Below, in pieces: positions 32,567-53,633 of a stretch of DNA of 64,000 bases. Position numbers and translations under genes: made by a program. This stretch comes from Nocardia spumae (GTDB lineage Bacteria; Actinomycetota; Actinomycetes; Mycobacteriales; Mycobacteriaceae). The DNA lies in the NCBI RefSeq assembly GCF_020733635.1, contig NZ_JAJFZL010000001.1, positions 6,448,001-6,512,000 of the forward strand, given 5' to 3'. The notes below the pieces were generated by a model, which had not been told where the DNA came from, made no database searches, and saw only the letters and a list, made by a program, of their open reading frames with translations. The first letter of the stretch is position 1. The number at the start of each line of letters is the position of its first letter.

Positions 32567-32617
32567 GCCCCTATAGCTCAGTTGGTAGAGCTACGGACTT
32601 TTAATCCGCAGGTCCCA
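32567..32617 (+). pseudogene. 5' part of the host tRNA-Lys (anticodon TTT), cut by the element
   Basis: From the acceptor 5' strand GCCCCTA through the D arm (TAGCTCAGTTGGTA), the anticodon loop CTTTTAA and the variable loop, up to the end of the 25-bp repeat at 32617. After that the sequence no longer gives a T arm or an acceptor 3' strand. The missing 3' part lies at 53612-53633, 21 kb away. The two parts joined give a perfect tRNA-Lys, so this is the attB gene broken by integration. Confidence 0.9.
32593..32617 (+). repeat. attL core (25-bp direct repeat)
   Basis: Identical over 25 bp to 53587-53611; the flanks differ at once (CT before and CCC after here; AA before and GGT after there). 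It covers the anticodon arm, variable loop and start of the T stem of tRNA-Lys. Confidence 0.92.
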
Positions 32618-32645
32618 CCCGGTTGACCTGCACAGATGCTAATCT

Positions 32646-32665
32646 CGTGGGGCAACCGTGGGGCA
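32646..32665 (+). promoter_or_regulatory. Two CGTGGGGCA repeats, likely integrase arm-type sites (left end)
   Basis: CGTGGGGCA occurs at 32646-32654 and 32657-32665, 11 bases apart and in the same direction. Three copies of the same motif lie near the right end (53414-53455). Such repeats inside both ends fit the arm-binding sites of a tyrosine integrase. Confidence 0.65.
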
Positions 32666-32670
32666 GAGAA

Positions 32671-32697
32671 CACAAAAATGGGCACCCGTAGGTGCCC
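32671..32697 (-). terminator. Intrinsic terminator of the element tRNA-Lys
   Basis: On the minus strand GGGCACC and GGTGCCC form a 7-bp stem with a 4-base loop, followed by ATTTTTGT. It lies 10 bases after the tRNA, a textbook Rho-independent terminator. Confidence 0.85.
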
Positions 32698-32706
32698 GAT
32701 GACTTG

Positions 32707-32779
32707 TGCCCCCTGTAGGACTCGAACCTACGACCTAGTGATTAAAAGTCACCAGCTCTACCAACTGAGCTAAAGGGGC
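32707..32779 (-). tRNA. Complete tRNA-Lys (anticodon TTT) carried by the element
   Basis: A 73-nt cloverleaf on the minus strand: acceptor GCCCCTT with AGGGGGC, discriminator A, D arm TAGCTCAGTTGGTAGAGC, anticodon loop CTTTTAA, T arm GTAGG-TTCGAGT-CCTAC. It has the same anticodon as the host tRNA that the element splits. Its anticodon stem differs (GGTGA/TCACT instead of the host sequence), so it is not itself an integration target. It is divergent from the integrase gene and has its own terminator. It most likely covers for the broken host gene. Confidence 0.95.
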
Positions 32780-32844
32780 TCGGCCCGGACAGCCTACAAC
32801 AAGGCAGCCGGTTGCCCCGAATCCGATGGAGGGGAGACATCCAG

Positions 32845-33957
32845 ATGGCTTGGGCCGAAAAGCTGCCCAGCGGCCGCTACCGGGGCGTCTACAGAGACTC
32901 CCTGGGTGCCAAGTGCACTCTTGCGGGCACGTTCGCCCGGAAGGAAGAAGCGAAGCGGCAGGCGGCCAAGAAGGAAGCCGAGGAACGCGACGCACCGTCG
33001 CCCCGCGGATCCAACTCCATAACGTGGGGCGAGTGGGAGACTCGGTGGCAGACCAGTCGGATTGTGGCGAAAAGCACTCTCCGCTCGGATGAAGGCCGCC
33101 TCCGAGACCACGTCCGTCCGCGTTGGCAGAAGACCGCTCTGAGAGAAATCTCGACAGACTCAGTCCAGCGATGGGTGACTGAACTCACAAACAGTGGCAT
33201 GGCTGCATCAACCGTCGCGAAGTGCTATTACCTCCTCAGCGCATCGTTGAAGGCCGCAGCGAACGCCCGGCTCATTCCGGCAAACCCATGCAAAGGTGTT
33301 TCGCTGCCCAAGCCGGGACCGATGCCAGAACGCTTCCTCGACGACAAGGAGGCCGCCGCGATCCGGCAGACCTTGTCCAAGTTCGACAAACTGGTCTTCG
33401 ACGTTCTGCTCGGCACAGGCATGCGACTCGGCGAGGCCATGGCCCTGCATTGGGAGGATGTGAACCTCGAACGGCAGGAAATCTCCGTCGAGTGGGCCTA
33501 CGACCCGGTCGCCCAGGAGATGAAGGCGCCGAAGGATCATCAGCGGCGAACGATCCCGGTCGGCGCCAGCCTTGCCAAGGTGCTATCGGGGCAGCTGGCG
33601 GCGGCCGGCTTCGGCCAGAAGGCCCCGAACCCGGTGCAGTACCCACGAAACGCCGGAGTTCATACCGGGCTAGTACTCGCCCACACGAACGGCCGACCAT
33701 TTGACCCAGACAACCTGCGCAAGGGTTTCGATGCATCAGTACGGATCGCCTACGTCGGCAGGGGAAAGCAACGACGCTGGATCGGCCCCACTCGCCTACA
33801 TGATCTGCGGCACACCTATGCGAGTCGGCTGCTCGAAAAGGGCATACCGATCGAGGAAGTCTCTCGACTCCTTGGACATGCCAGCTTGGCCACCACGCAG
33901 CGATACGCCCATCGCGGCAGGACGCAATGGGACAAGGTACGCGCCGCTCTGGGATAG
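32845..33957 (+). CDS. int: Tyrosine recombinase (phage-type integrase)
   Basis: 370 aa. An N-terminal arm-binding domain (WAEKLPSGRYRGVYRDSLG, residues 1-55), a SAM-like core-binding domain (60-145), and a catalytic domain with Arg194 (GTGMRLGEAMAL), Lys in MKAPKDHQRR, His319/Arg322 (LHDLRHTYAS), His345 and Tyr354 (GHASLATTQRYAH). All catalytic residues are present. ATG 32845 has GGAGGGGAG upstream. It lies next to attL, as usual, and 65 bp from the divergent tRNA-Lys. It cuts and joins the tRNA-Lys anticodon arm. Confidence 0.95.
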   Translation: MAWAEKLPSGRYRGVYRDSLGAKCTLAGTFARKEEAKRQAAKKEAEERDAPSPRGSNSITWGEWETRWQTSRIVAKSTLRSDEGRLRDHVRPRWQKTALREISTDSVQRWVTELTNSGMAASTVAKCYYLLSASLKAAANARLIPANPCKGVSLPKPGPMPERFLDDKEAAAIRQTLSKFDKLVFDVLLGTGMRLGEAMALHWEDVNLERQEISVEWAYDPVAQEMKAPKDHQRRTIPVGASLAKVLSGQLAAAGFGQKAPNPVQYPRNAGVHTGLVLAHTNGRPFDPDNLRKGFDASVRIAYVGRGKQRRWIGPTRLHDLRHTYASRLLEKGIPIEEVSRLLGHASLATTQRYAHRGRTQWDKVRAALG

Positions 33958-34215
33958 ACGATCTTGTCGATGTAATGCTGCGCTGCGGGAGCGCTCAGAC
34001 CAAACTCAGCGCAGCCTCGCGCGCCTAGGCTCTCAACGTCGGCGCCTTAACAGGGCAGCTCAACCTTGGGGCCAGATTGACACGCCGCGATTCCTCCACC
34101 TCAAGCCTGAGGCTGGCGTGTCACGACCCGCCAACCTCAAGCTCTCACCTCAAATTTGAGGCTGGATCGACACGTCGTGACACGCCAGAAACATATGTGA
34201 AGTACGGTGTGAAGT
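33958..34215. promoter_or_regulatory. Repeat-rich control region between integrase and cargo
   Basis: 258 bp without a gene. It holds a perfect 14-bp palindrome (34148-34161), a related one with a 4-base mismatched centre (34099-34112), a third CCTCAAGC, and a 13-bp inverted repeat (34115-34127 with 34174-34186, GGCGTGTCACGAC). The layout suggests several dimer sites of a regulator that controls the cargo gene at 34216, perhaps the HTH protein of the same cassette. Confidence 0.6.
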
Positions 34216-35046
34216 ATGGCGGTTGATGTGGTAGAGAGCCCATTCGGTTCGGAACCAGTGCAAGAGGTTTCCCTGGACAACCCGCCGTTGGCTCAAGTCC
34301 TCGTTCAAGTGCGCTTCTCGCAAGCTGCCCAACTTTGGGATGCCCACGACGAGACGGTTCGAGCCATCGTGACCGCCTTGCGAAGCGACTACCCGATCTT
34401 CAACAAGCAAAATGAAACCTCCCTCAAGATCGGGCCTGCAGGCGTTGCGCCAGTTCAGGAAGAGACGACTCTTTGGCAACTGCACTCACCTAACAAAGAC
34501 ACGATGGTCAGCTTCAGCACCACCTTCTTTGCCCTGGCGACGTCTAACTACGTGAGCCGAACCAAGTTCCTTGAGCGCCTAACTTCGGCATGGCAGGACT
34601 TCAGCACGATCGTCAACCCGATATATCCCGAGCGCATCGGAGTCCGGTACATCAACCGGATAGCAGATCCTGAGAAGATCGACCGGATCGCCAAACTCGT
34701 GCGGTCAGAGATGGTCGGAGAGATCACGACAGAGATCGGCGACGTGACTCGACAGCACTCGATTGCTCAAGCCTCGTACGAGCTTGGGGAAGGCGAGAGT
34801 TTTCAAGCGCGATGGGGACTTCTCCCACCGGGCGCAGCGTTCGAAGCGTCAGTTCCGCCGGCGAGTACTCAAAGTTGGATACTTGATCTGGACGCCGCCG
34901 TACAAACCAACTCTGGCCCGTTGACTACGGAGGACCTTGAGCAGCAGGTTCGCCATCTGACACAAAGGACCTACCGCTATTTTCGCTGGACTGTTAAGGA
35001 CGACTTCCTTGCAGAGTATGGAGGTGATCTCAATGGTCACAGCTGA
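34216..35046 (+). CDS. TIGR04255-family protein
   Basis: 276 aa. The family pattern is an N-terminal PPLAQVLVQVRF, a middle TTFFALATSNYVSRTKFLERL, and RIGVRYINRIADP. The function of the family is not known; members are spread irregularly and often lie on mobile DNA. No catalytic motif is visible. It overlaps the next gene by 14 bp, so the two are coupled. Base composition is lower in GC than the chromosome and codon use is less biased, in line with transfer. Possible part of a defence-like cassette with the next two genes (inference). Confidence 0.7.
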   Translation: MAVDVVESPFGSEPVQEVSLDNPPLAQVLVQVRFSQAAQLWDAHDETVRAIVTALRSDYPIFNKQNETSLKIGPAGVAPVQEETTLWQLHSPNKDTMVSFSTTFFALATSNYVSRTKFLERLTSAWQDFSTIVNPIYPERIGVRYINRIADPEKIDRIAKLVRSEMVGEITTEIGDVTRQHSIAQASYELGEGESFQARWGLLPPGAAFEASVPPASTQSWILDLDAAVQTNSGPLTTEDLEQQVRHLTQRTYRYFRWTVKDDFLAEYGGDLNGHS

Positions 35047-35668: not shown

Positions 35669-35734
35669 AATGCGGTGAGGGCACCTGCCCGAACCGAGAG
35701 GGGCGCGCGAGCTTTGACCGAGGTAGGAGCGGGA

Positions 35735-36649: not shown

Positions 36650-36728
36650 CTGGCGATAGCCATCACAGAGGAGAGCACTGTCGACGGCGCCCCCTTCGCC
36701 GGCCGCAAGTCTGAACTACCCTCATAGT

Positions 36729-37523: not shown

Positions 37524-37541
37524 TCCACCGTGAGTGGCGTA

Positions 37542-38247: not shown

Positions 38248-39171
38248 ATGGGTAACCCGCAGAACGAAGACGAGCGCAGCGAGATAGAACTCCATGTCCA
38301 GGAGCTAATGGCCCTTAAACACGTTAACTCTATCAGTCAGCTTGCTCAAGTTTTGAAGGCGCGACAACTTCGCTTTCATATTTACTACGGAGAGATCGCA
38401 AGGCAGTGCGGTATGCCGCTTGCCTGGGTGGACGGCATCTTTCAAGGCGATTTCATTCCTGAGAAGCCACGTTTCGAATCGCTACTCAAGGCGATTGCGG
38501 TGGAGGACTTCAAACCTTGGCATGAAGCGCGTAAGCGGGCGTATCTGCTCCCTTACGTTAGTTCCCGTCAGCCCAAGTCGTCGCCTACGGCTAAACAGCC
38601 CGCAGCTCCGTCCGTATCAGTAGCTGGCGATTACGCCCAGGTGCACATCCATGCTGAGCCCGCGAAGCCACCGGACGAGCGGGAAGACGCGGCGGCGCAA
38701 AAGGTACGTTATGCATTTCGCTTCTTGAATCATGCCCTATGGCAATCGACGATCACTTTCGCGTTGAGCATGGCCGTTACGACAGCCGGTTCACTAATCC
38801 TCCTAGTCGGTGCCTGGCTAGCCGTGCAGCATGCCGGCGATCAGCAGTCAAATTACCCGAGTGTTATCACCGCCCTGTCTGGCGTGGTCATCACAGCTTG
38901 CGGAGGAGCTTTTACTGTTCAATCAAACAAGGCCCGCAAGCATGCCACTGAGCAGACTGACCGAGTTCGCGAGGAACTAAAGGGTGATCTCGCGCACGAG
39001 AGGGCATCAAAGCAAATTGCGAATATACAGGATCCAGATTTGCGCGATCGGCTTCTAGCGATCAGCGCCTTGAAGGAGCTTGACCTAAGCCCCGCTCCTG
39101 TCGACCTAGATCGGCACCTTCCAATAAAGAAGGTTGAGTCTGTCAGGCTCCCAAGCGGCGAGAATGAATAA
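38248..39171 (+). CDS. HTH protein with two TM helices (TRADD-N-associated membrane domain-like)
   Basis: 307 aa. Residues about 12-98 are an HTH-like helical domain (ARQCGMPLAWVDGIFQGDFIPEKPRFESLLKAI) of a kind common at the N-terminus of actinobacterial conflict proteins. A linker follows with SVSVAGDYAQVHIHAEP. Two TM helices lie at about 168-193 (ITFALSMAVTTAGSLILLVG) and 205-225 (VITALSGVVITACGGAFTV), then QSNKARKHATEQTDRVREEL and a helical tail LRDRLLAISALKEL. This layout resembles the TRADD-N-associated TM domain of bacterial immunity and death proteins. The role would be a membrane effector or sensor (inference). ATG 38248 has GGGGGACGG upstream. Low GC suggests transfer. Confidence 0.65.
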   Translation: MGNPQNEDERSEIELHVQELMALKHVNSISQLAQVLKARQLRFHIYYGEIARQCGMPLAWVDGIFQGDFIPEKPRFESLLKAIAVEDFKPWHEARKRAYLLPYVSSRQPKSSPTAKQPAAPSVSVAGDYAQVHIHAEPAKPPDEREDAAAQKVRYAFRFLNHALWQSTITFALSMAVTTAGSLILLVGAWLAVQHAGDQQSNYPSVITALSGVVITACGGAFTVQSNKARKHATEQTDRVREELKGDLAHERASKQIANIQDPDLRDRLLAISALKELDLSPAPVDLDRHLPIKKVESVRLPSGENE

Positions 39172-42025: not shown

Positions 42026-42042
42026 GGTGTGGCTGGATTCGG

Positions 42043-42492
42043 TTATGCGGCAGGCGGGATGTAGGCGCCGAGGTCGTAGATGCGGCCGTAGCCGCCGCCC
42101 TCGACCGGACCGACGTACAGCAGGCCCTCCAGTCGGCCGCCGATGGCCAGCCCGCCGGCGCGGGCGCGGCGCACACCGGCGCTGATCGCACGCATCACGT
42201 CGCGGTCCAGGGTGATCACGCGCAACCCGTCGTCCTGGTCGTCGTCGCGGGCGCCGGTCTCGATGATCAACTGCGAATCGATCACGGGGTCGCCGCCGCT
42301 GGAGACGGTGGGTTTGCGGTTGATCCAGTACAGGGGCTGTCCCTCGCTGTTGTGGCGGTGGCGGCGGACGACCGAGACGATCTCGCCGGTCACTCCCTCG
42401 CCGGGCTGCACGTCCTTGCCAAACGGGTTGCGGGCGCCGGCGCCCATCAGCTCGGCATTGATCTGGTCCAGGTCGGTCAGTGCGTTGGTCAT
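42043..42492 (-). CDS. Hypothetical protein, last gene of the transfer operon
   Basis: 149 aa; start ATG 42490-42492 with GGAGGACATC upstream. The sequence GEGVTGEIVSVVRRHRHNSEG, QLIIETGARDDDQDDGLRVITLDRDVMRAISAGVRRA and GGRLEGLLYVGPVEGGGYGRIYDLGAYI suggests an OB-like beta barrel with a basic surface, perhaps a nucleic acid binding protein. I do not recognise a family. It is separated from the DUF2637 gene by 196 bp that include a strong hairpin, so it may be expressed at another level than the rest. Confidence 0.65.
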   Translation of the reverse strand: MTNALTDLDQINAELMGAGARNPFGKDVQPGEGVTGEIVSVVRRHRHNSEGQPLYWINRKPTVSSGGDPVIDSQLIIETGARDDDQDDGLRVITLDRDVMRAISAGVRRARAGGLAIGGRLEGLLYVGPVEGGGYGRIYDLGAYIPPAA

Positions 42493-42643
42493 GATGTCCT
42501 CCAAAGTTGTTCGAGGTGGTGAAGGGAATTGGGGGGCAGGCTGCCTGCCTGCCCGATATGGGCTGTGCCCGTGTGGCGGTAGAGGCTCACGGGTCAAGGG
42601 TGGCCGTCAGGCCATCGCCCTCGGCGACGCTTGCGCCCTGGAC

Positions 42644-42672
42644 GCGGGAGGGACCGCCGCACACCCTCCCGC
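42644..42672 (-). terminator. Hairpin after the DUF2637 gene
   Basis: A perfect 9-bp stem, GCGGGAGGG with CCCTCCCGC, and an 11-base loop, 17 bases past the stop at 42689. It may weaken read-through into the last gene. Confidence 0.6.
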
Positions 42673-42688
42673 ATCACCGGGCGATCGG

Positions 42689-43462
42689 TCAGCGAACCAA
42701 GCTCAGCACCTCCCCGTCATCGTCGGGGGCGTCGGCGGCGGCGATGATCTGCGCGACCCGCGAATGCGACAGCCCCACCGCGGCGCCGATCATTCGGGTC
42801 GATTCCCCCGCAGCGCGGCGGCGCAGGATCTCCGCATCACGTTCGGCGAGCGGGTCGGCGTCCACCGTCTCGGCGAGGGTTGTCTGCCCGCTGTCCAGCG
42901 CTGTCCGGTCGGTGTCCAGTCCTGTCGAATCGCTGTCCAGCCGTGTCGAATCGGCGTAGATCGGTGTCAACTCCGGCTCCGGCTCCGGTTCGGGAGCGCG
43001 GGGAACCTCGATCAGCGCGGTGAGGCCGTGCGTGGCGGCCAAACCGAACAGCGGCGCGGCGCCAGCGACGCAAGCCGCGATCGTCGCGGGCAGCAACCGA
43101 TGCCCGGATTCCGCAGCGTGCAAGCCATTTCCGACCACGCTTATGCCCTCGGCGCAGAACAGTTCGGCCCAGAAGAACCAGCGAGTAGCTTTCGGGATCT
43201 CGATGCTCTGGCGAGTGCGGCGCTGAAGCGAAACCAGCGCCACAGCGGACTGGACAATCGCGCCGTCCACGAAAATCGGCCCGGCCCACGCTAGACGCGG
43301 TGTAATCCCGGCCATCATCGACAACTCCGTCAGCGCGGCGAACGACCAGGCGAACGCACCAGCACCGATCACGATCGTCATCACCAGCGCGGTCAGCTCC
43401 GCGGCATCCAGACGCCCGTTGGACGGACGCTCGACACGGTGGACAGTGGTGGACGAGTTCAT
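42689..43462 (-). CDS. DUF2637 membrane protein (SpdB-like)
   Basis: 257 aa. Four hydrophobic segments in the first 150 residues (TALVMTIVIGAGAFAWSFAAL, AWAGPIFVDGAIVQSAVALVSL, FFWAELFCAEGISVVG, LLPATIAACVAGAAPLFGLAA) are the DUF2637 pattern seen next to transfer genes of Streptomyces and Nocardia elements, where related Spd proteins help intramycelial spread. An acidic repeat follows (four copies of a D[ST]..[TR].L heptad), then a C-terminal HTH-like AERDAEILRRRAAGESTRMIGAAVGLSHSRVAQIIAAA. ATG 43460-43462 overlaps the previous stop (ATGA). Confidence 0.8.
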   Translation of the reverse strand: MNSSTTVHRVERPSNGRLDAAELTALVMTIVIGAGAFAWSFAALTELSMMAGITPRLAWAGPIFVDGAIVQSAVALVSLQRRTRQSIEIPKATRWFFWAELFCAEGISVVGNGLHAAESGHRLLPATIAACVAGAAPLFGLAATHGLTALIEVPRAPEPEPEPELTPIYADSTRLDSDSTGLDTDRTALDSGQTTLAETVDADPLAERDAEILRRRAAGESTRMIGAAVGLSHSRVAQIIAAADAPDDDGEVLSLVR

Positions 43463-43890
43463 CGCTGCATCCCTTCTCGGTCGGCCGACGCGGCCCACGG
43501 GCTCCACGCCGGAGTACGGATCAGGCGCTCCTGCTCGGAGTGCAGGGCGTGTCCGGCCAGCTGATCCAGGGCATCGTCCAGATCGCTGGCCAACTCCCGG
43601 TTACGGTCTTCCAACTGCGCCGCCTGATGCTCAGCGGCATCACGCTCGGCAATCGCGGCGGCCAGCTGCTCCTCCAACTCCGCGGCCCGCTGATTCGCCG
43701 CGATCAGCCGCTCCTCGATCTGGCTGCGACCCGCCCCCTCCGGCGAGGGCTGGACAGCCGCTGCGGCTGCGGGTGTCGCCGGGCATGCCGTCCGGACCAT
43801 CGGCCGCGGGGCCGCTGCCCGGATGGTCGCCTCTCCGAGGTCGTGTGTGGGCTGGGCGGGCATCGTCGCCTCGACGGCGGGGGCGCTCAT
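43459..43890 (-). CDS. Small coiled-coil protein of the transfer operon
   Basis: 143 aa. Residues about 55-125 form a coiled coil (IEERLIAANQRAAELEEQLAAAIAERDAAEHQAAQLEDRNRELASDLDDALDQL). The tail ends ASADREGMQR, a short form of the tail shared by three other proteins of this operon. Start ATG 43888-43890 overlaps the upstream stop and its own stop overlaps the DUF2637 start, so it is embedded in a coupled series. Function unknown; a structural partner of the transfer machinery is possible. Confidence 0.65.
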   Translation of the reverse strand: MSAPAVEATMPAQPTHDLGEATIRAAAPRPMVRTACPATPAAAAAVQPSPEGAGRSQIEERLIAANQRAAELEEQLAAAIAERDAAEHQAAQLEDRNRELASDLDDALDQLAGHALHSEQERLIRTPAWSPWAASADREGMQR

Positions 43891-44537
43891 CGCTCGATTC
43901 CGTCGCGCTCGGAGTTCGCCTGGTGTGCGGCCAGGGCGTTGCCCGGCCGGTGGTTCGCCAGCGGCGACGGGATGGCCGTCTCCGAGTCGGCGCGATCCTG
44001 GACCCGGGTGACGTAGGGGGAGGTCAACAGGCCGTGCTCGTCGCACTCGATGCCGTGGTTGGCGATGTCGCGGGCCTGCTGCTCGCTGCGCAGCTCGATC
44101 GGGGTCAGCCAACCGACGTCCTGATAGAAGGTCAGACGGCGTTGGGCGGCTGCGTAGTCGGAGGACCACCGATCCGTCGCATCCGACAGGTACTCCCACT
44201 CGTCGGCCCACTGCTCCTCGCCATCGAACCACGGTGACGAGTACTCGCGGTAGGCCAGCTCGTCGGCCGAGTCGTAGTCGTCGTTGCCGCGGCACCGCAG
44301 GTTGTAGTACTCGGCGTGCATGAAGTCCGAGCGCATCTGCTGCTCGGTCCAGGTCTCGGTCTCGTGGGCCTGGTCGCTGGTATCGGCGCGGGTAATCTCG
44401 GTCATTGGTTCGGCTCCCTCTCGATCAGTGGTGGTTGTTGTGGTGTCGGGCCGTCGGTGCATGCCGGGCGTAGCCGCGCCCGGCATGTCCACATCCGCGG
44501 CTTCGCGGATGCCGGCGGCGCGTTCGGGGGTGCTCAT
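43887..44537 (-). CDS. Acidic transfer-operon protein with the shared C-terminal tail
   Basis: 216 aa from ATG 44535-44537, which overlaps the upstream stop; an internal ATG at 44405 with GAGGGAGCC upstream is a possible second start. It is rich in Asp, Glu, Tyr and Trp (MHAEYYNLRCRGNDDYDSADEL, EEQWADEWEYLSDATDRWSSDY). The C-terminus reads LANHRPGNALAAHQ, then ANSERDGIER, and matches the tails of the proteins encoded at 44534-46135 and 49645-50058. Function unknown. Confidence 0.62.
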   Translation of the reverse strand: MSTPERAAGIREAADVDMPGAATPGMHRRPDTTTTTTDREGAEPMTEITRADTSDQAHETETWTEQQMRSDFMHAEYYNLRCRGNDDYDSADELAYREYSSPWFDGEEQWADEWEYLSDATDRWSSDYAAAQRRLTFYQDVGWLTPIELRSEQQARDIANHGIECDEHGLLTSPYVTRVQDRADSETAIPSPLANHRPGNALAAHQANSERDGIER

Positions 44538-46135
44538 CGCTCGAATCCGTCTCGCTCGGCTCCGTTGCGCGCCACGGCATCAGCGAGCACGCGGCCGGGT
44601 TGATGGTCGGCCAGCGGGGACCGTGCCGACTCCCGCGTCTCGACCTTGACCTGCGCGGCCTGGCGTTCCGGGCTGCCGTACCGCTCGTGTGCAGGGGTGC
44701 GTTCGGCGAGTTTCTGCACGGCCTCGTCCCGCTCGCCACGCAGCTGGTCACGCTCGGCAGTCAGCTGGGTCAGTTGCCGGGTCAACTCGGAGTTCTGCTC
44801 GTCCAGTCGGCCGTTGTGGCTAATCGACAGATTCAGTCGGGCCTTGAGCGAATCCACGTCCTCGCGCAGCCGATCCCGCTGCGCCCGAACCCGTTCGAAC
44901 TGCTCACCGGCGTGTCCGGCCGTCTGCTCCCGGCGGGCACCGGAATACATGGCGGAGATGGCCGCGTCCCGCGCCGGATCCGAATGGGGACGCGGCTGTG
45001 CCCCCTCCTCGGCCCACATCCGCGCCCATACCGCATCGTCGGCGCGGTCCCGCTCATACTCCCGACGCAGCTGCTCGGCCGTCAGCGGCCGGGAGGACGA
45101 GAATCCGTCCCGGGTTTCGCTATGCCACAACTCGGCGTCGCGGGCGACCTCGACCTGATTGCCCTCGATGGCGTAAAACGGCTTCTCGCGGCCAATCTCG
45201 CGGGCCTTGACCGTCAGCGTCGTGCCCGGCCGCCAATCGGTCTCGGTCACCGCGTCGTGTGTCCACCGCGCGGCCTCGGCTTCGGTCGGGTGATAGGTGT
45301 TCCAGGTCCAGTCCCTCTCCCCCGGCCTGCCGGCCGTGATGGTCACCTGCGCGCGGGAATTCGCTTCAGCGTTGTCGAGTTCCCACCGCACCTGCTCGGG
45401 CGTCAGGCCCGCCGCACGGGCCCGTGCGGTCGCGATCCGCCGCCCTGCCCGCACGTCGCGGCTCTCGCCGTACTCGCGAGCCACCGCCTGGACGTGCCGC
45501 AAGTCCTGCACGGCGACCCCCTGCCGGACCGCTCGCTCCGGATCGACCGTCCGGACAGCGGCTTCCCGCGCTGCCCGCTCGCGGTGGTCGGGTAGCGCCT
45601 GCTCGATCGCCGCTCGGCGCTCGCTCACCCAGCGCTCGGACCGGACCGCGGCCTCCCGCGCCTGCTGCGCGGCGCGGCCGACCGGCGTACGGAACAGCTC
45701 CGGCCCGTAGAACGGCCGGTCCACCTGAGCGAAATCGAACCGGTCCATCGCCTGCACGATCTGACCGCGCTGCTCCAACGACAATCCGGTGCTCGGCAGG
45801 CTCGACTCGATGCTGTACCGCATCGAGTCCAGCCGGGCGTTCTCGTCATCCATAGCCACCCCCGCGGTGCGGCGCATCCGCTGCCGCAACGCGATCGACT
45901 CGCGGCGGTAGTCCTCCACCCGCTTGGCGAACCACGCCTCGGTGACACGCCGCTCCCCGACCCGCGCGCGGATCTGCTCGGCCAGCTCCCGCCGCTCTTC
46001 GCGGGACAACCGCGGCACCCCGGCGTTGCGGCCCTGTTCGCGGCGGCGGTGGATGTAGGTGCGGGCGACGTCGATCACCTGACGGAATATCCGTCCGGTG
46101 TCACGGCCGATCTGGTCAATTTCGTTGTCGGACAT
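44534..46135 (-). CDS. Large coiled-coil protein of the transfer operon with the shared tail
   Basis: 533 aa. The N-terminal 250 residues are helical and very rich in Arg (RREQGRNAGVPRLSREERRELAEQIRARVGERR). A middle part has beta-rich segments (AQVTITAGRPGERDWTWNTYHPTEAEA, FYAIEGNQVEVARDAELWHSE). A coiled coil follows (about 410-490) with LTRQLTQLTAERDQLRGERDEAVQKL. It ends LADHQPGRVLADAVARN and AERDGFER. I find no relaxase HUH or Tyr motif. It may be a DNA-binding accessory or a translocated substrate. ATG 46133-46135 has AAGGGAAG upstream. Confidence 0.6.
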   Translation of the reverse strand: MSDNEIDQIGRDTGRIFRQVIDVARTYIHRRREQGRNAGVPRLSREERRELAEQIRARVGERRVTEAWFAKRVEDYRRESIALRQRMRRTAGVAMDDENARLDSMRYSIESSLPSTGLSLEQRGQIVQAMDRFDFAQVDRPFYGPELFRTPVGRAAQQAREAAVRSERWVSERRAAIEQALPDHRERAAREAAVRTVDPERAVRQGVAVQDLRHVQAVAREYGESRDVRAGRRIATARARAAGLTPEQVRWELDNAEANSRAQVTITAGRPGERDWTWNTYHPTEAEAARWTHDAVTETDWRPGTTLTVKAREIGREKPFYAIEGNQVEVARDAELWHSETRDGFSSSRPLTAEQLRREYERDRADDAVWARMWAEEGAQPRPHSDPARDAAISAMYSGARREQTAGHAGEQFERVRAQRDRLREDVDSLKARLNLSISHNGRLDEQNSELTRQLTQLTAERDQLRGERDEAVQKLAERTPAHERYGSPERQAAQVKVETRESARSPLADHQPGRVLADAVARNGAERDGFER

Positions 46136-46213
46136 GCGCTTCCCTTTCGATTCAGTGGTTATTTCCATGACCGGCCCATGTGGGCCGGACGAGTGGCGGC
46201 GTCATCGTGGCGG

Positions 46214-46726
46214 TCACTGCTCGCCCCCGCCGCTCGCCGTGCGGCGGGCTTCGTAGGCGCCGCGCCGCTCGGACAGCTGCGTCACCCGCTCACGCAGCCG
46301 CCCCCAGTTCTCGGCCGCGGCGCCAGCGAGCATCCGTACCGAGTCGACAGGCCCCGGACGCCCGGCGCAGTGCCACCAGGCGAATGCCGCCAGCGCCAGC
46401 ACGTACAGCGCCAGCGGGCCCGGCAGCGGCAACACCGCGACCGCGGTAGCCGCCGCAGCCGTCGTTGCGACGGCGGGACCCCAGATCCGCAGGTTGTCAC
46501 GGGTTTTCGAGATGCGGGAGACGTGCGGGACGACTGCGCGGCCGACGTTGCCGCCGTCCGGGACGACCGGCACGAGCTGGCTGGCCAGCTGCGCGGCGGC
46601 GCTGCCGGCCATGTCGGCGCTCAGCGCGTCCAGTACCTGCCGTTCACGTTCCTGCTCCGCGGCGCTGCGGGCGCCGCCCAACTCTTCGCCGTGGTCTTCG
46701 GGATCGAACGCATTCGGGGATGACAT
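46214..46726 (-). CDS. Small membrane protein of the transfer operon
   Basis: 170 aa. An acidic N-terminal part (FDPEDHGEELGGARSAAEQERERQVLDALSADMAG) is followed by two hydrophobic segments (AVATTAAAATAVAVLPLPG and ALYVLALAAFAWWHCAG, about residues 84-120), and a basic C-terminus. AAGGAG lies at a good distance before ATG 46726. It sits between the coupling ATPase and the coiled-coil protein; a membrane partner of the transfer channel is a fair guess. No family recognised. Confidence 0.65.
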   Translation of the reverse strand: MSSPNAFDPEDHGEELGGARSAAEQERERQVLDALSADMAGSAAAQLASQLVPVVPDGGNVGRAVVPHVSRISKTRDNLRIWGPAVATTAAAATAVAVLPLPGPLALYVLALAAFAWWHCAGRPGPVDSVRMLAGAAAENWGRLRERVTQLSERRGAYEARRTASGGGEQ

Positions 46727-46754
46727 GTTGTAACTCCTTGCTGTTCAGTGGATT

Positions 46755-48875
46755 TCAGGCCGGACGGCGCTTGGACAGATCGATCACCGAAGCCAGATCG
46801 CCGCTGTCATCGGTGTCAGCCGGGCCGGTGAAGTCGCCCAGTCCCGGCAGCGGGCGGACGCGGGCGAGTTCGGCGTCATCGAGCGGGGACACGCGGCCCC
46901 AGCGGGCGCGCCCGCCGGCCACCTGCACCACGTCGCCCTTTTGCATGGCGCGCAGCCGGTTCGGCGAGATCAGGAACTGGTCACCGGTCTGGACGTTGCC
47001 CTCGTCGCCGCTGGCTGTGCCGCTGATCAACTTGCGGCTCAGCTCGAACTTGGGACGGGTGCCATATACCTTGGCCAGCGTTTCCGGATCGGTGGATCGG
47101 CCCAGAAGGCTGCCGCCCGAAGCAGCCGACACCAGCGCGGTCCGGTTGTCGTCGTCGTGGCCGAGGCCCTGCCAGGACTGCGCGATCCACCACGACCCGA
47201 TCCCGGCCTTCCGCAGCCGTTCGACCCACTTCACCGCGCGGGTCTTGCCATCAGACACCGCCGAGAACTCGTCCACGACCATGAGGGAGGTGCGGCCGTG
47301 CTGCTTGTCGGCCAGCTGCTCGAACATCGTCCCCAGAGCACCGAACTGGGCGCGGGCCCGGTCGGGGGTCTTCACACCCTCCAGCACGATGTAGATCAGA
47401 TCGAAGTCGGTCAGCTCCTTGTCGCCGTCGAACGCCGACCCCAGCGACCGGTACAAGTTGGCGAATTCTGCTCGCGCGCTGTTCATCACCGGCTGCTTGC
47501 CGTCGATCGTGGACGCGATCTCCATGTCCACGCCCATCACGCCCGACCACGGCGTAACCCCGGCCTGACCACCCCAAAGCTTCGACAACTTGTCCACGTC
47601 GAAGCGGGACAGGAATTCCAGCCACGACCGCGGCGGGTTGTGCCCGATCGGCGTGGGTACGCCGTCGATCAGCTCGACCCGGGCCGGGGCGTCCACGATC
47701 AGGTGGATCAGGGTCTCGCGGATCTCGTGGAAATACCGTTCGGTGTCGGTAGTCGGCGTGGTGCCGCCGGAGATCATCGCCGACAGGATCGACCGCAGAT
47801 CATCCACGATGGCCTGCTGCTCTTCCGGTGTCTTCGTCGCGAAGTCGTGGCGCGGCCACATGCTCAGCGACACATCGTCAGGGAAAGTGCCGATCCGTTC
47901 GGGACGAACACCCAAGGCCAGGAACCATTTCCGCATCCGGGCGGCGACCTTGCGCGACTCCGGGCCTCCGTTGCAGTCCACGACGATGGCCAGCGGCCGG
48001 CCGGGCCGGTCGAGCCGCCACCACTGCCGATGCCGCGTCCACGTCGTGATGAACCACGACCACAGCACCCGCAGCATCAGCGTGGTCTTGCCCGAACCGC
48101 TGGACGCGACCGTGGTCATGTGCTCGGCCACGTTGATCCACGGCAGGATCAGCCGCGTCTCAGTACGGCCGGCCAGCGCCCGGATCATGCTCTTGGGCGG
48201 TGCCTGGTCGAACTCCTGCGACAGCCGCCCGATCACCAGCTCCGGGTTCAGTCCCCCGGTCGTGTACGGAAGACGCCGACGCGAAAGCCGAGCCGCCGCA
48301 CGCTGCTCGCGCTGGGCCTGGGCCCACAGTGCCCGCTCGGTGCGTGCCGGATTCTGCAACCCGACAGTGGACAGGCGCACCCGGTAGCTGGTGTGCACCA
48401 CGGTCGCGATCAGCCACGCGGCCGGGATCAGCAGCGGCGCCATACCGGCCATGCCGCCGACGAACTGGCCTGCCAGGAATTGGTGCGCGGCCTGGGTGAA
48501 GTCGCGGGCCGGGGCGAAGATATCCCACGCCCACAGCGCCGCGGCGCCCGGCATTACCAGCACGGATGCGAACATCCAGTTCCGCAACCGGGTGGGTTTC
48601 CAGCCCAGCAGGGTCGCCGGAGCCAGGATCGCGACCATGCCGATCAGGACCGCGACCAGGCACGCCGCACCCAGCAGGGCGCTGTGACCGATGCTGTCCC
48701 AATGCCACGCCGAGAAGTCCGGCAACCAGCCCAGCGGGTCATGTTTGACGCCGATCGGCGGCATTTCCCGCTTGATGTGAATGCCGGGTTGCTCCACCGT
48801 CGTCGATGGCGCTGTCGTGGTGGTAGGCGTGGACGATCGGCAGTCGTCGGGGGTGATGAGCGGTGTGCAGGTCAT
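46755..48875 (-). CDS. Conjugation coupling ATPase (VirD4/FtsK-like)
   Basis: 706 aa. Three membrane segments at about 62-88, 98-118 and 136-160, then a cytosolic P-loop ATPase. Walker A is VASSGSGKTTLML (about 257-266) and Walker B is RTSLMVVDEFSAV. Between them is a long all-alpha part (AIVDDLRSILSAMISGGT, TERYFHEIRETLIHLIVD) as in VirD4/TcpA coupling proteins. It moves DNA or DNA-protein complexes across the membrane. ATG 48873-48875 overlaps the stop of the replication-relaxation gene. In Streptomyces-type elements TraB (FtsK-like) alone transfers double-stranded DNA; which mode applies here is not clear. Confidence 0.83.
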   Translation of the reverse strand: MTCTPLITPDDCRSSTPTTTTAPSTTVEQPGIHIKREMPPIGVKHDPLGWLPDFSAWHWDSIGHSALLGAACLVAVLIGMVAILAPATLLGWKPTRLRNWMFASVLVMPGAAALWAWDIFAPARDFTQAAHQFLAGQFVGGMAGMAPLLIPAAWLIATVVHTSYRVRLSTVGLQNPARTERALWAQAQREQRAAARLSRRRLPYTTGGLNPELVIGRLSQEFDQAPPKSMIRALAGRTETRLILPWINVAEHMTTVASSGSGKTTLMLRVLWSWFITTWTRHRQWWRLDRPGRPLAIVVDCNGGPESRKVAARMRKWFLALGVRPERIGTFPDDVSLSMWPRHDFATKTPEEQQAIVDDLRSILSAMISGGTTPTTDTERYFHEIRETLIHLIVDAPARVELIDGVPTPIGHNPPRSWLEFLSRFDVDKLSKLWGGQAGVTPWSGVMGVDMEIASTIDGKQPVMNSARAEFANLYRSLGSAFDGDKELTDFDLIYIVLEGVKTPDRARAQFGALGTMFEQLADKQHGRTSLMVVDEFSAVSDGKTRAVKWVERLRKAGIGSWWIAQSWQGLGHDDDNRTALVSAASGGSLLGRSTDPETLAKVYGTRPKFELSRKLISGTASGDEGNVQTGDQFLISPNRLRAMQKGDVVQVAGGRARWGRVSPLDDAELARVRPLPGLGDFTGPADTDDSGDLASVIDLSKRRPA

Positions 48876-49648
48876 GATCCGACCGCCTTTCCGTCGTCCG
48901 GGTTCGAGACCTGGGAGATTTCGTGATCAGCGGCTCCGCCCGCGATCACCCGGAGCCCGGGTCGCGAAGCAGGAGAGAACGATTCGGCCTGGTCTTTTGC
49001 CAGAAACTCGTCCAAATCGGCGAGGCGCGGCTTCCAGCCGTCCGACATATCCAGACTCGCCGCCGCAGTCCGGATTACGTTCTTCACAGCCTCACCGCGG
49101 CAGTAGTAGGTGAGGCCAGCACATTCGGCACGCTGGGCAACCTGCCGGGCTTGCAGCACCGATCGCCTCGCTGCCGCAAGGCTTTTCGGGGTCAGTTCGA
49201 CCTCGACGGCCCACAACTCGCCCGCGCTAGTGATGTAACGCCCATCGTGGATATGCGGGCGTGACTGCCCCGCTGGTGTCACACCAACCTCGGCGTGCAA
49301 CAGGCGCTCCGAGGTCCAGCGCTCCAGGTCCATCCCGGTCAACGCCAGACGGAGCTGAAATACGGCCTTGACGTGCGCGGCCATCTTCGGCGTCGGCACC
49401 CAATAACGCACCGGCCGACCTAGCAGAGCTTCCGCCGCGGACTTCGTGGGAAAGATCCACGACGGCCCCGGTACCGGCCGCGCCCGGTTGGCGCTGATCA
49501 AGTGGGCCGCTTCCCATTTCGCCGTGATCCGGTACGCACGGTTGAGGCTCACGCCCAGCATTTGTGCGACTACATCCATTGGTGCCCCGTACATTTCGGC
49601 CAGAATCGTTGTGCCGGCCATGTCACGCGGCGAGAGTCGATAAGTCAT
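48872..49648 (-). CDS. Replication-relaxation-family protein (winged HTH plus nuclease-like domain)
   Basis: 258 aa. The N-terminal wHTH is MAGTTILAEMYGAPMDVVAQMLGVSLNRAYRITAKWEAAHLI (residues about 10-51). The C-terminal part has HIHDGRYITSAGELWAVEVELTPKS, which fits the D-x(n)-ExE-x-K pattern of PD-(D/E)XK-like folds in the Replic_Relax family. Members are found next to coupling ATPases on actinobacterial plasmids and may act as relaxase-like or auxiliary DNA processing factors. The start overlaps the upstream stop (ATGA at 49645-49648). Of the genes here it is the best candidate for DNA processing at the transfer origin. Confidence 0.72.
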   Translation of the reverse strand: MTYRLSPRDMAGTTILAEMYGAPMDVVAQMLGVSLNRAYRITAKWEAAHLISANRARPVPGPSWIFPTKSAAEALLGRPVRYWVPTPKMAAHVKAVFQLRLALTGMDLERWTSERLLHAEVGVTPAGQSRPHIHDGRYITSAGELWAVEVELTPKSLAAARRSVLQARQVAQRAECAGLTYYCRGEAVKNVIRTAAASLDMSDGWKPRLADLDEFLAKDQAESFSPASRPGLRVIAGGAADHEISQVSNPDDGKAVGS

Positions 49649-50058
49649 CGGTCTATCCCTTCGCGTTCGGCGTTGCGGGTCACCGCGTCGGCCAGGGCAT
49701 TGCCCGTGGGCACGTAGCCCGCCAGTGCGCTGGTGGGTGTGTCCCACTCCGATTCCTGCTCATCAGCGGTCTGTTCGAACTCACTGCGGTCGATACCGTG
49801 GCGCTCGGCAGCGCGGAGCTGGTGCTCACGAGTCGCTTTCGCGAGCGCCGCCAACTGAGCCGGGGTCGCGGGCCGCTTCGGCGCGCTCTTGCTCACGTCG
49901 AACAAGTGCGCCTCGTACTCGCGGCCGTGCCGCCGAAACGGCACCTTGCCCGCGATGTCCTGCCCATTCGGACGCAAACCCTGCGCAGCCAACTGGCGAC
50001 GAGTCCGCAGATGAGGCGGTGCCATGCGCCACCTGTAGACCGGGATGCCTTCGCTCAC
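49645..50058 (-). CDS. RRQL/GLRPNGQ-motif protein with the shared C-terminal tail
   Basis: 137 aa from GTG 50056-50058 (GTGA overlap with the upstream stop). The segment RTRRQLAAQGLRPNGQDIAG is a motif common in small proteins of actinobacterial plasmids and integrative elements. It is followed by YEAHLFDVSKSAPKRPATPAQLAALAKATREHQLRAAE, a helical stretch, and ends ALADAVTRNAEREGIDR, the same tail as two other operon proteins. Function unknown; the position between membrane proteins and the relaxation protein suggests a role in transfer. Confidence 0.65.
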   Translation of the reverse strand: MSEGIPVYRWRMAPPHLRTRRQLAAQGLRPNGQDIAGKVPFRRHGREYEAHLFDVSKSAPKRPATPAQLAALAKATREHQLRAAERHGIDRSEFEQTADEQESEWDTPTSALAGYVPTGNALADAVTRNAEREGIDR

Positions 50059-50907: not shown

Positions 50908-50917
50908 CACGCGCCCC

Positions 50918-51124: not shown

Positions 51125-51149
51125 GAATGTCTCCTCCGACGATCAGTGC

Positions 51150-51212
51150 GACATCAGATGCTCTATCTGATGTCTTTAAAGATAGATCTGATGTCTTCTG
51201 ATGTCTAGACAT
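51150..51212. promoter_or_regulatory. Operator array (GACATCAGAT/ATCTGATGTC repeats) between divergent transcripts
   Basis: GACATCAGAT (51150-51159) and ATCTGATGTC (51165-51174) form a perfect inverted repeat with a 5-base spacer. ATCTGATGTC recurs at 51186-51195 and TTCTGATGTC directly after it at 51196-51205. A perfect palindrome ATGTCTAGACAT covers 51201-51212. The array lies between the Xis-headed operon and the GntR-kinase gene; the GntR domain encoded at 51327 is the likely binder. Confidence 0.75.
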
Positions 51213-51326
51213 TCGTGCGTTTTTCATCACAGATATGCAGCCCTGGGAAGAATCTGCAGGCCAGAGAGGGTTACGTGGGTATCAACTGATAGCTTTGATG
51301 CACCACGACGGACGTAGGAGGGCTAC

Positions 51327-52151
51327 GTGGACACCTCAGGAGATGCGCGGCATCGGCAGATCGCCCGCGAGATCCGCAACGAGATCGAGTCGGGGAAGCT
51401 CCGGCCCGGCCAGAAGTTGCCGAGTACGCGAGCCCTGGCTGAGCAGTTCGGCGTGAGCGTCGCGCCCGTCAACGATGCGATGGCCATTCTTGAGGAAGAG
51501 GGTCTCGTCGTCAGTCGTCCGCGCTCCGGACGGATTGTCAGCGAGACCGCCACCCCCGGCGCTCCGCGACCTCGGCGCGGGCGACCGCAGGTCATCTTCG
51601 TAGGCGGCTATGCCGGCAGCGGAAAGACGGAACTTGGGGCAGTGCTGGCGAGGCTGACCGGCTGGGCGATGCTCGACAAGGACACGATCACCAGGGCGGT
51701 TGTCGACACGGCACTGGTGCAGCTGGGAAGTACTGTCGCGGACCGCGAATCCCCCACCTACATGAACCTCGTTCGTCCCGCTGAATACGAATGCCTTGCT
51801 GCGGCCGTTCGGGAGAATGTCAGCTGCGGAGTGAGCGTCATCGCGACCGCGCCGTACATCAAAGAGTTCAGCACCGAAGCTTGGTTCCGCCGGACCGCCG
51901 CCGAACTGGACACCCTCGGCGCCGACATGGAGGTGGTCTGGATCCGGTGCCAGCCGGACTCCATGCACTCGTACATCTCCCGGCGGGGCGCCGCTCGGGA
52001 TTCCTGGAAGCTCGCCAACTGGGACGATTACGTGAGCGGTCTCGACACCACTTTCGAACCGCCGTGGCAGCACACGATCATCACGAACGATCCCGACTCC
52101 CCGCCGTTGCGCGAGCAAGCCCAGGCGCTGATCAAGTCTCTACAGGACTGA
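51327..52151 (+). CDS. GntR-type HTH fused to a P-loop kinase-like ATPase domain
   Basis: 274 aa. Residues 1-72 are a GntR winged helix (IAREIRNEIESGKLRPGQKLPSTRALAEQFGVSVAPVNDAMAILEEEGLV). Residues about 88-274 are an AAA_33/zeta-toxin-like kinase: VIFVGGYAGSGKTELG (P-loop 94-101), MLDKDTITRAV, VIATAPYIKEF and MEVVWIRCQPDSMHSYISRRGAARD. Regulators of actinomycete integrative elements (KorSA type) also have GntR domains, but the fused kinase would let nucleotide or substrate binding set repression (inference). GTG 51327 has TAGGAGGG upstream. The next gene begins two bases after the stop. Confidence 0.82.
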   Translation: MDTSGDARHRQIAREIRNEIESGKLRPGQKLPSTRALAEQFGVSVAPVNDAMAILEEEGLVVSRPRSGRIVSETATPGAPRPRRGRPQVIFVGGYAGSGKTELGAVLARLTGWAMLDKDTITRAVVDTALVQLGSTVADRESPTYMNLVRPAEYECLAAAVRENVSCGVSVIATAPYIKEFSTEAWFRRTAAELDTLGADMEVVWIRCQPDSMHSYISRRGAARDSWKLANWDDYVSGLDTTFEPPWQHTIITNDPDSPPLREQAQALIKSLQD

Positions 52152-52152
52152 G

Positions 52153-53394
52153 ATGGACACCGCGATCGTCATGTACGGCCCACCGGCCGCGGGCAAGGAC
52201 ACCGTGACGGCCGCATTGACCAGTCTCGACGGGAAGTTTCACCACTACCGACGGATGAAGGTCGGCACCGGTCGCACCGCGGGATACCGGATGGCCTCAG
52301 CACCCGAATATGAGCGCCTGGCCGCCGCTGGTGAGGTCATCTACTCGAACTCGCGGTACGGCTCGACCTACATCATCGATCGCCCCGAACTGGCGAAAAT
52401 CCTTGCAAATAGCGAGGTTCCGGTTCTGCATGTCGGTCAGCCGGAGGCGGTAAACGCGCTACTTGCTGCCGCTCCGGCCGTCCGATGGATCGTGGTCGAA
52501 CTGTGGTGTCCCCGCGAGATCGCAGCGGAGCGAGTCACCGCTCGAGGAACTGGCGACACCGCGGCGCGGCTCGAGGCATGGGACGCGACACCGCGGCTGA
52601 CCAACCCCGACGTCCGGATCGACACGGCAACGGTCGATCCCACTGGCGCGGCCGGCCGAATCGTCGAGGCCGTCACTGCCGCTCAGTGCACGGTCATAGT
52701 GCCGACGATGCATCTCGTACATCCAGACGGCACCCTGGATCTGGCCGCTACACAGCGCCACGCAACTGCGGCTGCCGACAGCTGGATCGATCACTTTCTG
52801 ATCAACGGTTCGACCTCCGCCGGTCACGAGCTGACTCGCGCCGAACGGACGGGCGTCCTCGATACCTGGCTCGAAGCGGTCGGCCCTGGTCGGCTGCTCT
52901 CCTGCGCTTGGTCGGGTGACGACGTCGCGGCTGCGGTCGATCGCGAGGTGGCCCCTATGGCAGTACTGCGAGCCGCTTCTGTACCCGATGCTCAACGGAT
53001 TCTCCGAACACTGCCGGCCGGATCGACGATCTACAGCCATCCCGCCATGTTCGGCCATCCGTTCGATGCCGAGTTGGCGGCCTGGGCGAAAGAATCCGGC
53101 TGCCTCCCGCTCGGCGGCAAGCTCGCCAAGATTCCATTGGCAGAGATAACCGAAATCCAACGTGCTGCACCAGAATTCGCCATCTGGGACGGTTCGTCCC
53201 GGCGAATTCGAGAGTCAATGGGCGCCGGTGCGGCCGGGGTCGTCGCAACGCCGTTGGCCGCGCTACTGACCGAGCTTCCCCCGCGCAGCCTGGCCCTGCT
53301 CCAACCCGTGATCGACGCCATACAGAACGAACTCGACCGCCTCCCGGACCGAGCGGCCAAACGCCGATGGCTGCTCGACCAAATTCAGGACTGA
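52153..53394 (+). CDS. Guanylate-kinase-like domain fused to a DapA/NAL-type aldolase domain
   Basis: 413 aa. Residues 1-172 resemble nucleotide kinases: MYGPPAAGKDTVTAAL (P-loop 9-17), YRRMKVGTGRTAGYRM, VIYSNSRYGSTY and WIVVELWCPREIAAERV. Residues about 178-413 are a TIM barrel of the dihydrodipicolinate synthase/N-acetylneuraminate lyase family: TMHLVHPDGTLDLAATQRH, LINGSTSAGHELTRAER, TIYSHPAMFGHPF with Tyr294, and GGKLAKIPLAEI with the likely Schiff-base Lys323. I know no characterised protein with this fusion. It is coupled to the GntR-kinase gene. Two kinase-like domains side by side suggest one small-molecule or nucleotide pathway of unknown purpose. Confidence 0.72.
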   Translation: MDTAIVMYGPPAAGKDTVTAALTSLDGKFHHYRRMKVGTGRTAGYRMASAPEYERLAAAGEVIYSNSRYGSTYIIDRPELAKILANSEVPVLHVGQPEAVNALLAAAPAVRWIVVELWCPREIAAERVTARGTGDTAARLEAWDATPRLTNPDVRIDTATVDPTGAAGRIVEAVTAAQCTVIVPTMHLVHPDGTLDLAATQRHATAAADSWIDHFLINGSTSAGHELTRAERTGVLDTWLEAVGPGRLLSCAWSGDDVAAAVDREVAPMAVLRAASVPDAQRILRTLPAGSTIYSHPAMFGHPFDAELAAWAKESGCLPLGGKLAKIPLAEITEIQRAAPEFAIWDGSSRRIRESMGAGAAGVVATPLAALLTELPPRSLALLQPVIDAIQNELDRLPDRAAKRRWLLDQIQD

Positions 53395-53413
53395 CCGTCC
53401 ACCCATCACCGAC

Positions 53414-53455
53414 CGTGGGGCACGCACGATCCCACTATGGGGCACCCGTGGGGCA
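53414..53455 (+). promoter_or_regulatory. Three GTGGGGCA-type repeats, likely integrase arm-type sites (right end)
   Basis: CGTGGGGCA at 53414-53422, TATGGGGCA at 53436-53444 and CGTGGGGCA at 53447-53455, all in the same direction as the two copies near the left end. A looser inverted repeat AGGTCA/TGACCT (53520-53525 and 53550-53555) lies between them and the core. Confidence 0.65.
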
Positions 53456-53586
53456 TACAGATGGATCGACGTGTACTCTCTTGTCACGTAAGTGCAATCG
53501 ATATTCGACCAATAAACACAGGTCAGATGACATTTAGAGTCACAAAAGTTGACCTATGTCCTGCGGTTTGATATCCGGAGCTGAAA

Positions 53587-53611
53587 ACGGACTTTTAATC
53601 CGCAGGTCCCA
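53587..53611 (+). repeat. attR core (25-bp direct repeat)
   Basis: Identical to 32593-32617. It continues directly into the 3' part of tRNA-Lys on the chromosome side. Confidence 0.92.
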
Positions 53612-53633
53612 GGTTCGAGCCCTGGTGGGGGCA
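53587..53633 (+). pseudogene. 3' part of the host tRNA-Lys (anticodon TTT)
   Basis: The anticodon arm, variable loop, T arm (CAGG-TTCGAGC-CCTG) and acceptor strand TGGGGGC with discriminator A, but no 5' acceptor strand or D arm before 53587. Joined to 32567-32617 across one copy of the 25-bp repeat it gives a complete tRNA-Lys. It has no tRNA promoter here and cannot make a functional tRNA. Confidence 0.9.

Follow-up and report, generated by a model that had tools for sequence, protein, structure and literature searches.

An integrative island of Nocardia divides the host tRNA-Lys(UUU) gene and carries a replacement that likely outlives the island as a host gene

Phages with tRNA-dependent lysogeny, as portrayed in the sections of Guerrero-Bustamante and Hatfull (PMC10865867) covered here, integrate through a short common core, do not rebuild the host tRNA gene and carry the cognate tRNA themselves; according to the phage genetics in these sections, lysogens are viable only with the carried tRNA. 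The tRNA-Lys-TTT gene is the commonest target in the table of that paper and its main example, with cores of 8–17 base pairs (bp), and the word Nocardia occurs nowhere in its main text. Prophage Lj965 of Lactobacillus johnsonii, as cited in PMC10865867, also leaves the tRNA unrestored and contains the cognate tRNA. Similarly, in the passages considered from the study of Sinorhizobium meliloti phage-related sequences (PMC11476347), an inactivated host tRNA is replaced by an element-borne isoacceptor, although in another phylum and with other tRNAs. The survival of a carried tRNA after the loss of its element is described neither in the covered sections of the former paper nor in the covered passages of the latter. 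Here we analyse a stretch of 64,000 nucleotides from the chromosome of Nocardia spumae (the window), in which a 21-kb island (32593-53611), bounded by a 25-bp direct repeat, divides the host tRNA-Lys(UUU) gene and carries an intact tRNA-Lys(UUU) gene of its own.

The island shares with the phages Fionnbharth, LeBron, Gabriela and BrutonGaster, as far as they are characterized in the consulted sections of PMC10865867, a tyrosine integrase and an attB site inside the host tRNA-Lys-TTT gene. Further common traits with the phages of these sections are a short core which does not rebuild the tRNA, the cognate tRNA aboard and putative arm-type repeats flanking the core. The features of tRNA-dependent lysogeny present in the window thus comprise the tyrosine integrase, attB in a tRNA gene, the core of 25 bp, a tRNA of the same isotype and the lack of a second host copy. 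In contrast to these phages, the Nocardia carriers are islands of 16.8–22.5 kb, and that of the window is without recognised phage structural genes. We consider it very likely that the element is a site-specific integrative island with tRNA-dependent integration, and that its tRNA outlives the decay of the island as a host gene.

The host gene is divided within the anticodon arm. The common core ACGGACTTTTAATCCGCAGGTCCCA, which occurs just twice in the window, reaches from the anticodon stem as far as the stretch preceding the T arm, and T arm and acceptor strand continue only from the right copy. Because the core stops ahead of the T arm, neither junction rebuilds the host tRNA. The original prediction, made from the letters of the window, that a short repeat had truly broken the host gene is borne out by the attL junction without a T arm. 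Its second element, an intact tRNA-Lys(UUU) with its own terminator and a different anticodon stem inside the left end, was found 88 bp inward of the left core. The gene of the tyrosine integrase, which presumably acts at the 25-bp core, starts divergently 65 bp from this tRNA. The repeat GTGGGGCA is present in six copies in the window, four of them within the island and adjoining both att sites.

The island gene appears to be the only source of an AAA-reading tRNA. In the whole genome, an assembly of five contigs with 99.95% completeness, Rfam matched 53 tRNAs; ARAGORN called 52 tRNAs on the matched stretches, among them one Lys(TTT), that of the island, and one Lys(CTT). A pattern search of the genome with up to two mismatches yielded no second intact tRNA-Lys(UUU). 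The 53rd Rfam match is the attL chimera (32567-32654), which scored 31.5 bits versus 73.3 bits for the intact gene. Its alignment is without the whole T arm, it received no ARAGORN call and is therefore unlikely to work as a tRNA; a reconstruction of the tRNA at attL was rejected on the same absence of the T arm. One GTGGGGCA repeat occupies the place of the 3′ acceptor strand in the chimera and lifts it past the Rfam cut-off, hence annotation pipelines may call the chimera a tRNA. Since AAA is not decoded by a CUU anticodon under the standard rules, the tRNA gene of the island should be indispensable, and its product would be charged and essential. The tRNA-Lys count thus agrees with the proposal that the replacement is the only tRNA reading AAA, and Rfam, ARAGORN and the pattern search revealed neither a second tRNA-Lys(UUU) nor a functional tRNA at attL.

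Across the genus, 147 of 150 surveyed Nocardia genomes gave a full tRNA-Lys(UUU) match; the other three were G024, with its 5′ half cut by the end of a contig, G141 (88% complete, attR seen) and G015 (78% complete). The native A-type gene, as in the divided host copy, was found in 115 genomes and the B-type gene, as in the island, in 32, and a 40-nucleotide pattern of the A-type 5′ part occurred in 121 of the 150 genomes. The unoccupied site with an intact tRNA, which the original prediction had suggested to look for, is hence represented by the native-type gene in 115 of 147 genomes, all of other species. The B tRNA is identical over 73 nucleotides in 31 of the 32 genomes; G163 differs. Six B-type genomes contain the island (class E), 17 have the gene in native orientation (class i), and nine have it inverted without an island (class ii; loci L250, L254, L257, L258, L275, L277, L278, L279 and L285).

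Besides the window's island, five genomes showed an A-type 5′ half with a divergent B-type tRNA beside it and a Lys-type integrase. These integrases are 69–74% identical to that of the window, each located 65–70 bp from the Lys(ttt) gene. Altogether seven carriers were recognised, six with attL assembled, including the window's, and the incomplete genome G141 with attR only. The size range given above refers to five carriers, the window included, measured between the outer ends of the tRNA halves; in G163, attL and attR lie on separate contigs. The common cores, with junctions read by eye, range from 13 to 25 bp and none extends to the T arm; putative arm-type sites in the form of GTGGGGCA-like repeats flank the core on both sides. 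The window's island and four others share a backbone in which the 706- and 291-residue proteins are 74–82% identical to those of the window (G163 was not compared).

Class ii loci hold a tRNA of the island type where the island itself is missing. The tRNA gene has the orientation of the neighbouring desaturase gene in all 80 A-type loci measured and in all 17 class i loci, and the opposite orientation in all nine class ii loci. The 45 nucleotides upstream of the class ii genes scored as island type over native type in nine of nine cases (position-weight scoring, mean +17 to +34 bits), and the upstream regions of L254, L275 and L279, in addition to L257, aligned with those of islands (blastn against a small database, E 1e-7 to 0.003). 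Locus L257 is an intermediate, as its sequence combines a decaying attL with an integrase stub: a decayed A-type 5′ half with insertions and deletions in and near the core, a stub of 73 residues 71% identical to the integrase of G070, and an attL side 79% identical to that of G070 over 346 nucleotides. The upstream regions of class i are ambiguous, intermediate between the native and the island type with means of −14.9 to +2.7 bits (15 of 17 weakly nearer native), and no clear att remains were found beside the genes. A sample of the order included 17 genomes from the same family but outside Nocardia; in 16 of these the search matched a tRNA-Lys(UUU), invariably with the A-type stem, which is why the A-type is taken as ancestral; in the 17th, G182, only a CUU-reading tRNA was matched.

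A tree of the locus was calculated from three proteins beside it (114 rows, 82 of the 115 A-type genomes, class E rows partly filled) with a quick, short IQ-TREE search and support from the Shimodaira-Hasegawa-like approximate likelihood ratio test (SH-aLRT) only. Class i formed one group (SH-aLRT 99). Parsimony required five label changes on this tree for class ii, at least three of them on strong branches, and six for class E; class ii as a single clade was rejected (p 2.4e-5), as was a single clade of classes i and ii (p 5.9e-5).

In the proposed course of events, the tyrosine integrase would join attP to the only tRNA-Lys(UUU) gene of the host by recombination within its anticodon arm. The short core would split this gene permanently. 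Losing the tRNA for AAA would be lethal, but the complete tRNA carried just inside the integrase end would make good the loss; it has an upstream region and a terminator of its own and an anticodon stem no longer matching the core. The host would depend on the carried tRNA after integration, and on decay of the island the tRNA alone would survive, becoming a host gene inverted at the same locus. Judging from the comparison of present genomes, several lineages of Nocardia appear to have undergone this last step.

The original prediction had regarded the tRNA, provided that no other tRNA reads AAA, as an addiction module which makes any imprecise deletion of the element lethal. The host dependence it implies stands, but not the securing of the whole element: nine genomes keep only the inverted B tRNA, hence a deletion which spares the tRNA is tolerated and selection would favour keeping a gene of 74 bp and not the island around it. 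What the addiction secures is the tRNA itself, and the island is protected only until some deletion spares the tRNA. The principle of tRNA-dependent integration has its precedents in phages; what is new is that the carried tRNA appears to outlast its element as the sole host gene. No report of host tRNA genes left by lost elements was found in a literature search mainly at title and abstract level, with few subscription journals, which included passages of PMC10865867, PMC11476347, PMC12429752, PMC13313380, PMC3218068 and PMC10872708. The locus extends tRNA-dependent integration to an element not recognisably a phage and indicates a long-term outcome beyond lysogeny experiments, in which the sole host gene that decodes AAA is a mobile tRNA left behind by its carrier. 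It raises the question of how often essential translation genes are mobile in origin and were made indispensable by a past insertion; the protection given by such addiction extends to a gene of 74 bp and not to the island that brought it.

Related tRNAs are present in phages. The integrases of the Gordonia phages TinaLin and TZGordon are 58% and 56% identical to that of the window, their annotated tRNA-Lys(ttt) is identical to the island tRNA in 73 of 73 positions, and a GGACTTTTAATCCG core lies 113–114 nucleotides upstream of the tRNA on the same strand. The sequence layout of the two phages, with tRNA and core on one strand and the integrase about 2 kb away from the tRNA, differs from that of the Nocardia islands, where tRNA and core lie on opposite strands and the integrase is at the short distance given above. 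Phage L151 (integrase 54% identical) has a tRNA-Lys similar but not identical to the island tRNA. An exact search of a viral collection with the 27-nucleotide anticodon arm retrieved ten contigs, three with the identical tRNA and seven with other acceptor stems. The expectation that related elements always carry the tRNA-Lys holds for close relatives, namely all six Nocardia carriers with attL and the Gordonia phages, and fails for several distant relatives of the integrase.

Several points weigh against the preferred reading of the island and its tRNA. The attL chimera, at its low score, still exceeds the Rfam gathering score of 29. At L257 the attR half was not found, and at eight of the nine class ii loci a recognisable half of the old A-type tRNA is absent; seven of these eight never rose above the maximum of 60 shuffles which served as control (L258 tied with it). 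Since no tRNA halves are left, the history of most class ii loci rests on orientation, allele and promoter region. Three A-type genomes (G072, G009 and G166; loci L261, L262 and L263) bear a second, different Lys(UUU)-like tRNA (GCGCCTGTAG...), so that a single copy is usual and not universal. If species exchanged the locus by homologous recombination, this could mimic separate origins and spread the inverted gene, so that separate is to be understood as separate on this tree. Among the candidates for remnants, an A-type trace at L279 reached one point above the shuffle maximum, but past the neighbouring desaturase gene, and island-gene matches in L254, L275 and L278 were weak (E 0.004 to 0.05); neither was counted. 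The GTGGGGCA repeat at one of 17 class i loci (L281) and two of nine class ii loci (L257 and L254) was not taken as a signal except at L257, where one was expected.

The most durable alternative concerns class i and reverses its direction: the B allele would have arisen in that Nocardia clade and been captured later by islands and phages. We regard this as possible, though not the reading to be favoured. The identity of 31 of the 32 B copies leaves the direction of transfer unmarked, and the upstream regions of 15 of 17 class i genomes lean weakly to the native type, but the A-type stem in all 16 matched genomes outside the genus and the occurrence of the anticodon-arm string beside other acceptor stems in viruses (seven contigs) argue against it, and class ii is left untouched by the reversal. 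A phage with the layout of TinaLin, its tRNA on the strand of the core, would leave the B gene in native orientation after decay, which fits class i; capture of the B gene by phages from the class i clade fits too. We give about even odds to the wider proposal of a one-way ratchet which exchanges essential host genes. In this view one mobile tRNA-Lys(UUU) took the place of the native gene again and again in Nocardia (six islands, nine inverted relics and possibly the ancestor of class i); as the B anticodon stem does not match the core, each replacement would also protect the locus from later insertions.

That class ii goes back to a native B-type gene inverted in place, without any mobile element, is improbable. 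The B gene of class i does occupy the locus without an island, and at eight of nine class ii loci no att site or integrase remains; yet class ii nests among A-type lineages outside the class i clade, and the joint clade is rejected as given above. All nine class ii genes have the island-like upstream region as opposed to the more native one in 15 of 17 class i genomes, and L257 retains attL and an integrase stub. Ordinary integration at a tRNA site, with one junction restoring the host gene and the extra tRNA-Lys as incidental cargo, could appeal to the attL chimera passing the gathering score with GTGGGGCA at the place of its acceptor strand, but is very improbable in view of the alignment without T arm and without ARAGORN call, of the core ending short of the T arm in the six carriers with both junctions read, and of the B tRNA in six of six carriers with attL and nine of nine class ii genomes.

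The features of the divided tRNA locus and of the island are listed in Table 1.

Table 1 Features of the divided tRNA-Lys(UUU) locus and of the island in the window
Feature	Position	Strand	Basis
Host tRNA-Lys(UUU), 5′ part (A-type), host promoter on its left	32567..32617	+	sequence
attL copy of the 25-bp common core ACGGACTTTTAATCCGCAGGTCCCA (anticodon arm to variable loop)	32593..32617	+	
Paired GTGGGGCA repeats (32647, 32658), putative arm-type integrase sites	32647..32665	+	
Terminator-like hairpin with T-run, downstream of island tRNA	32680..32697	-	read from sequence
Intact island tRNA-Lys(UUU), B-type, GGTGA/TCACT anticodon stem	32706..32779	-	ARAGORN/Rfam
Upstream (promoter) region of island tRNA	32780..32829	-	upstream-region scoring
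Tyrosine integrase, 370 residues	32845..33957	+	PF00589 E 2.5e-26 (longer frame from 32812); phrog_1 E 5.9e-63
TIGR04255 family protein, 276 residues	34216..35046	+	family profile match
ATP-dependent DNA ligase-like protein, 318 residues	40426..41382	-	phrog_114 E 2.6e-37
383-residue protein, recurrent in related islands	42143..43294	+	comparison with related islands
216-residue protein, recurrent in related islands	43887..44537	-	comparison with related islands
544-residue variable backbone protein	44534..46168	-	comparison with related islands
170-residue backbone protein	46214..46726	-	comparison with related islands
706-residue backbone ATPase, N-terminal helices, predicted TrwB/VirB4/HerA-like fold	46755..48875	-	
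291-residue backbone protein	48872..49747	-	comparison with related islands
GntR helix-turn-helix fused to AAA_33/zeta-toxin-like kinase, 274 residues, cargo	51327..52151	+	
413-residue neighbour of the GntR-kinase, cargo	52153..53394	+	
Paired GTGGGGCA repeats (53415, 53448), putative arm-type sites, other attP arm	53415..53455	+	
attR copy of the 25-bp common core ACGGACTTTTAATCCGCAGGTCCCA	53587..53611	+	
Host tRNA-Lys(UUU), 3′ part, terminator-like hairpin after it	53587..53633	+	sequence

The gene content suggests that the element is not a complete phage but an integrative island, for which conjugation or mobilisation is the probable means of spread. For the island of the window, 19 distinct frames, competing ones included, were searched with PHROGs profiles (10 at E 0.001 and 10 at E 0.1, one repeated). 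They matched families of integrase, DNA ligase and regulator/kinase, and no phage structural or packaging family convincingly, the sole head-and-packaging matches having E values of 0.077 and 0.083; the result covers this island only, and a phage too diverged for the profiles would escape these searches. By these profiles the carrier would not be recognisable as a temperate phage. A relaxase or another gene for the initiation of transfer was not recognised among the island frames scanned with Pfam, NCBIfam and PHROGs.

The family of the 706-residue protein comprises 94 matches among 7995 candidates scored; all those with a named organism are from Nocardia, and some are labelled TraD/TraG. Pfam TraG-D_C matches 18 of 54 members. 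TrwB was the top Foldseek match of the predicted fold (predicted local distance difference test score, pLDDT, 82.5), and in VIA-align DndH, HerA, VirB4 and TrwB matched about equally. A search for solved structures by sequence returned only WD-repeat-type chains with the single sequence (E 0.05-0.09) and none with the alignment. Two of ten proteins submitted to PADLOC had one weak match each (mads_8, E 4e-8, for the 706-residue protein; LmuB, E 0.0015). The family is present in 65 of the 150 genus genomes, including six of the nine class ii genomes (G021, G034, G083, G136, G146 and G156), where a related gene lies elsewhere in the genome; the loss of the island at the tRNA locus is therefore not equal to the loss of the whole family.

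The cargo includes a protein (38248-39171) with the Pfam domain CyanoTRADDas_TM (E 8.7e-17). The GntR-kinase, with a weak zeta-toxin match, and its 413-residue neighbour adjoin attR (51327-53394). The pair is also present in G143 (83% and 70% identity) and in L422, L433, L434, L436 and L438 (kinase 77–90%, neighbour 56–73%), related islands without a Lys-type integrase in the stretch fetched. It is possibly a toxin-antitoxin or defence cargo.

No Lys-type integrase was found in 20 further stretches surrounding genes of the 706-residue family, several of them cut by contig ends. Five of these stretches encode an integrase about 50–53% identical to that of the window, two of them beside tRNA-Val(tac): in the islands L427 and L437, with the same backbone, an integrase about 52% identical is located 77–78 bp from this tRNA. 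Most integrase relatives with identities of about 54% or below are without a tRNA-Lys in their vicinity (e.g. L068, L071-L075 and L152-L154). Within this group, the Rhodococcus rhodnii contig L074 (5416 bases) encodes an integrase with 46% identity beside a Glu-Asp-Phe tRNA cluster; about 200 bp past the integrase end lies a tRNA-Lys-like 3′ half, no complete tRNA-Lys being called on the contig. This is perhaps a further insertion at a tRNA-Lys site, in another genus. Contig C62 of G024 (L455) ends inside a tRNA-Lys 5′ half beside a Phe-Asp-Glu tRNA cluster, in a genome with extra tRNA clusters, and may possibly represent another insertion at the tRNA-Lys site.

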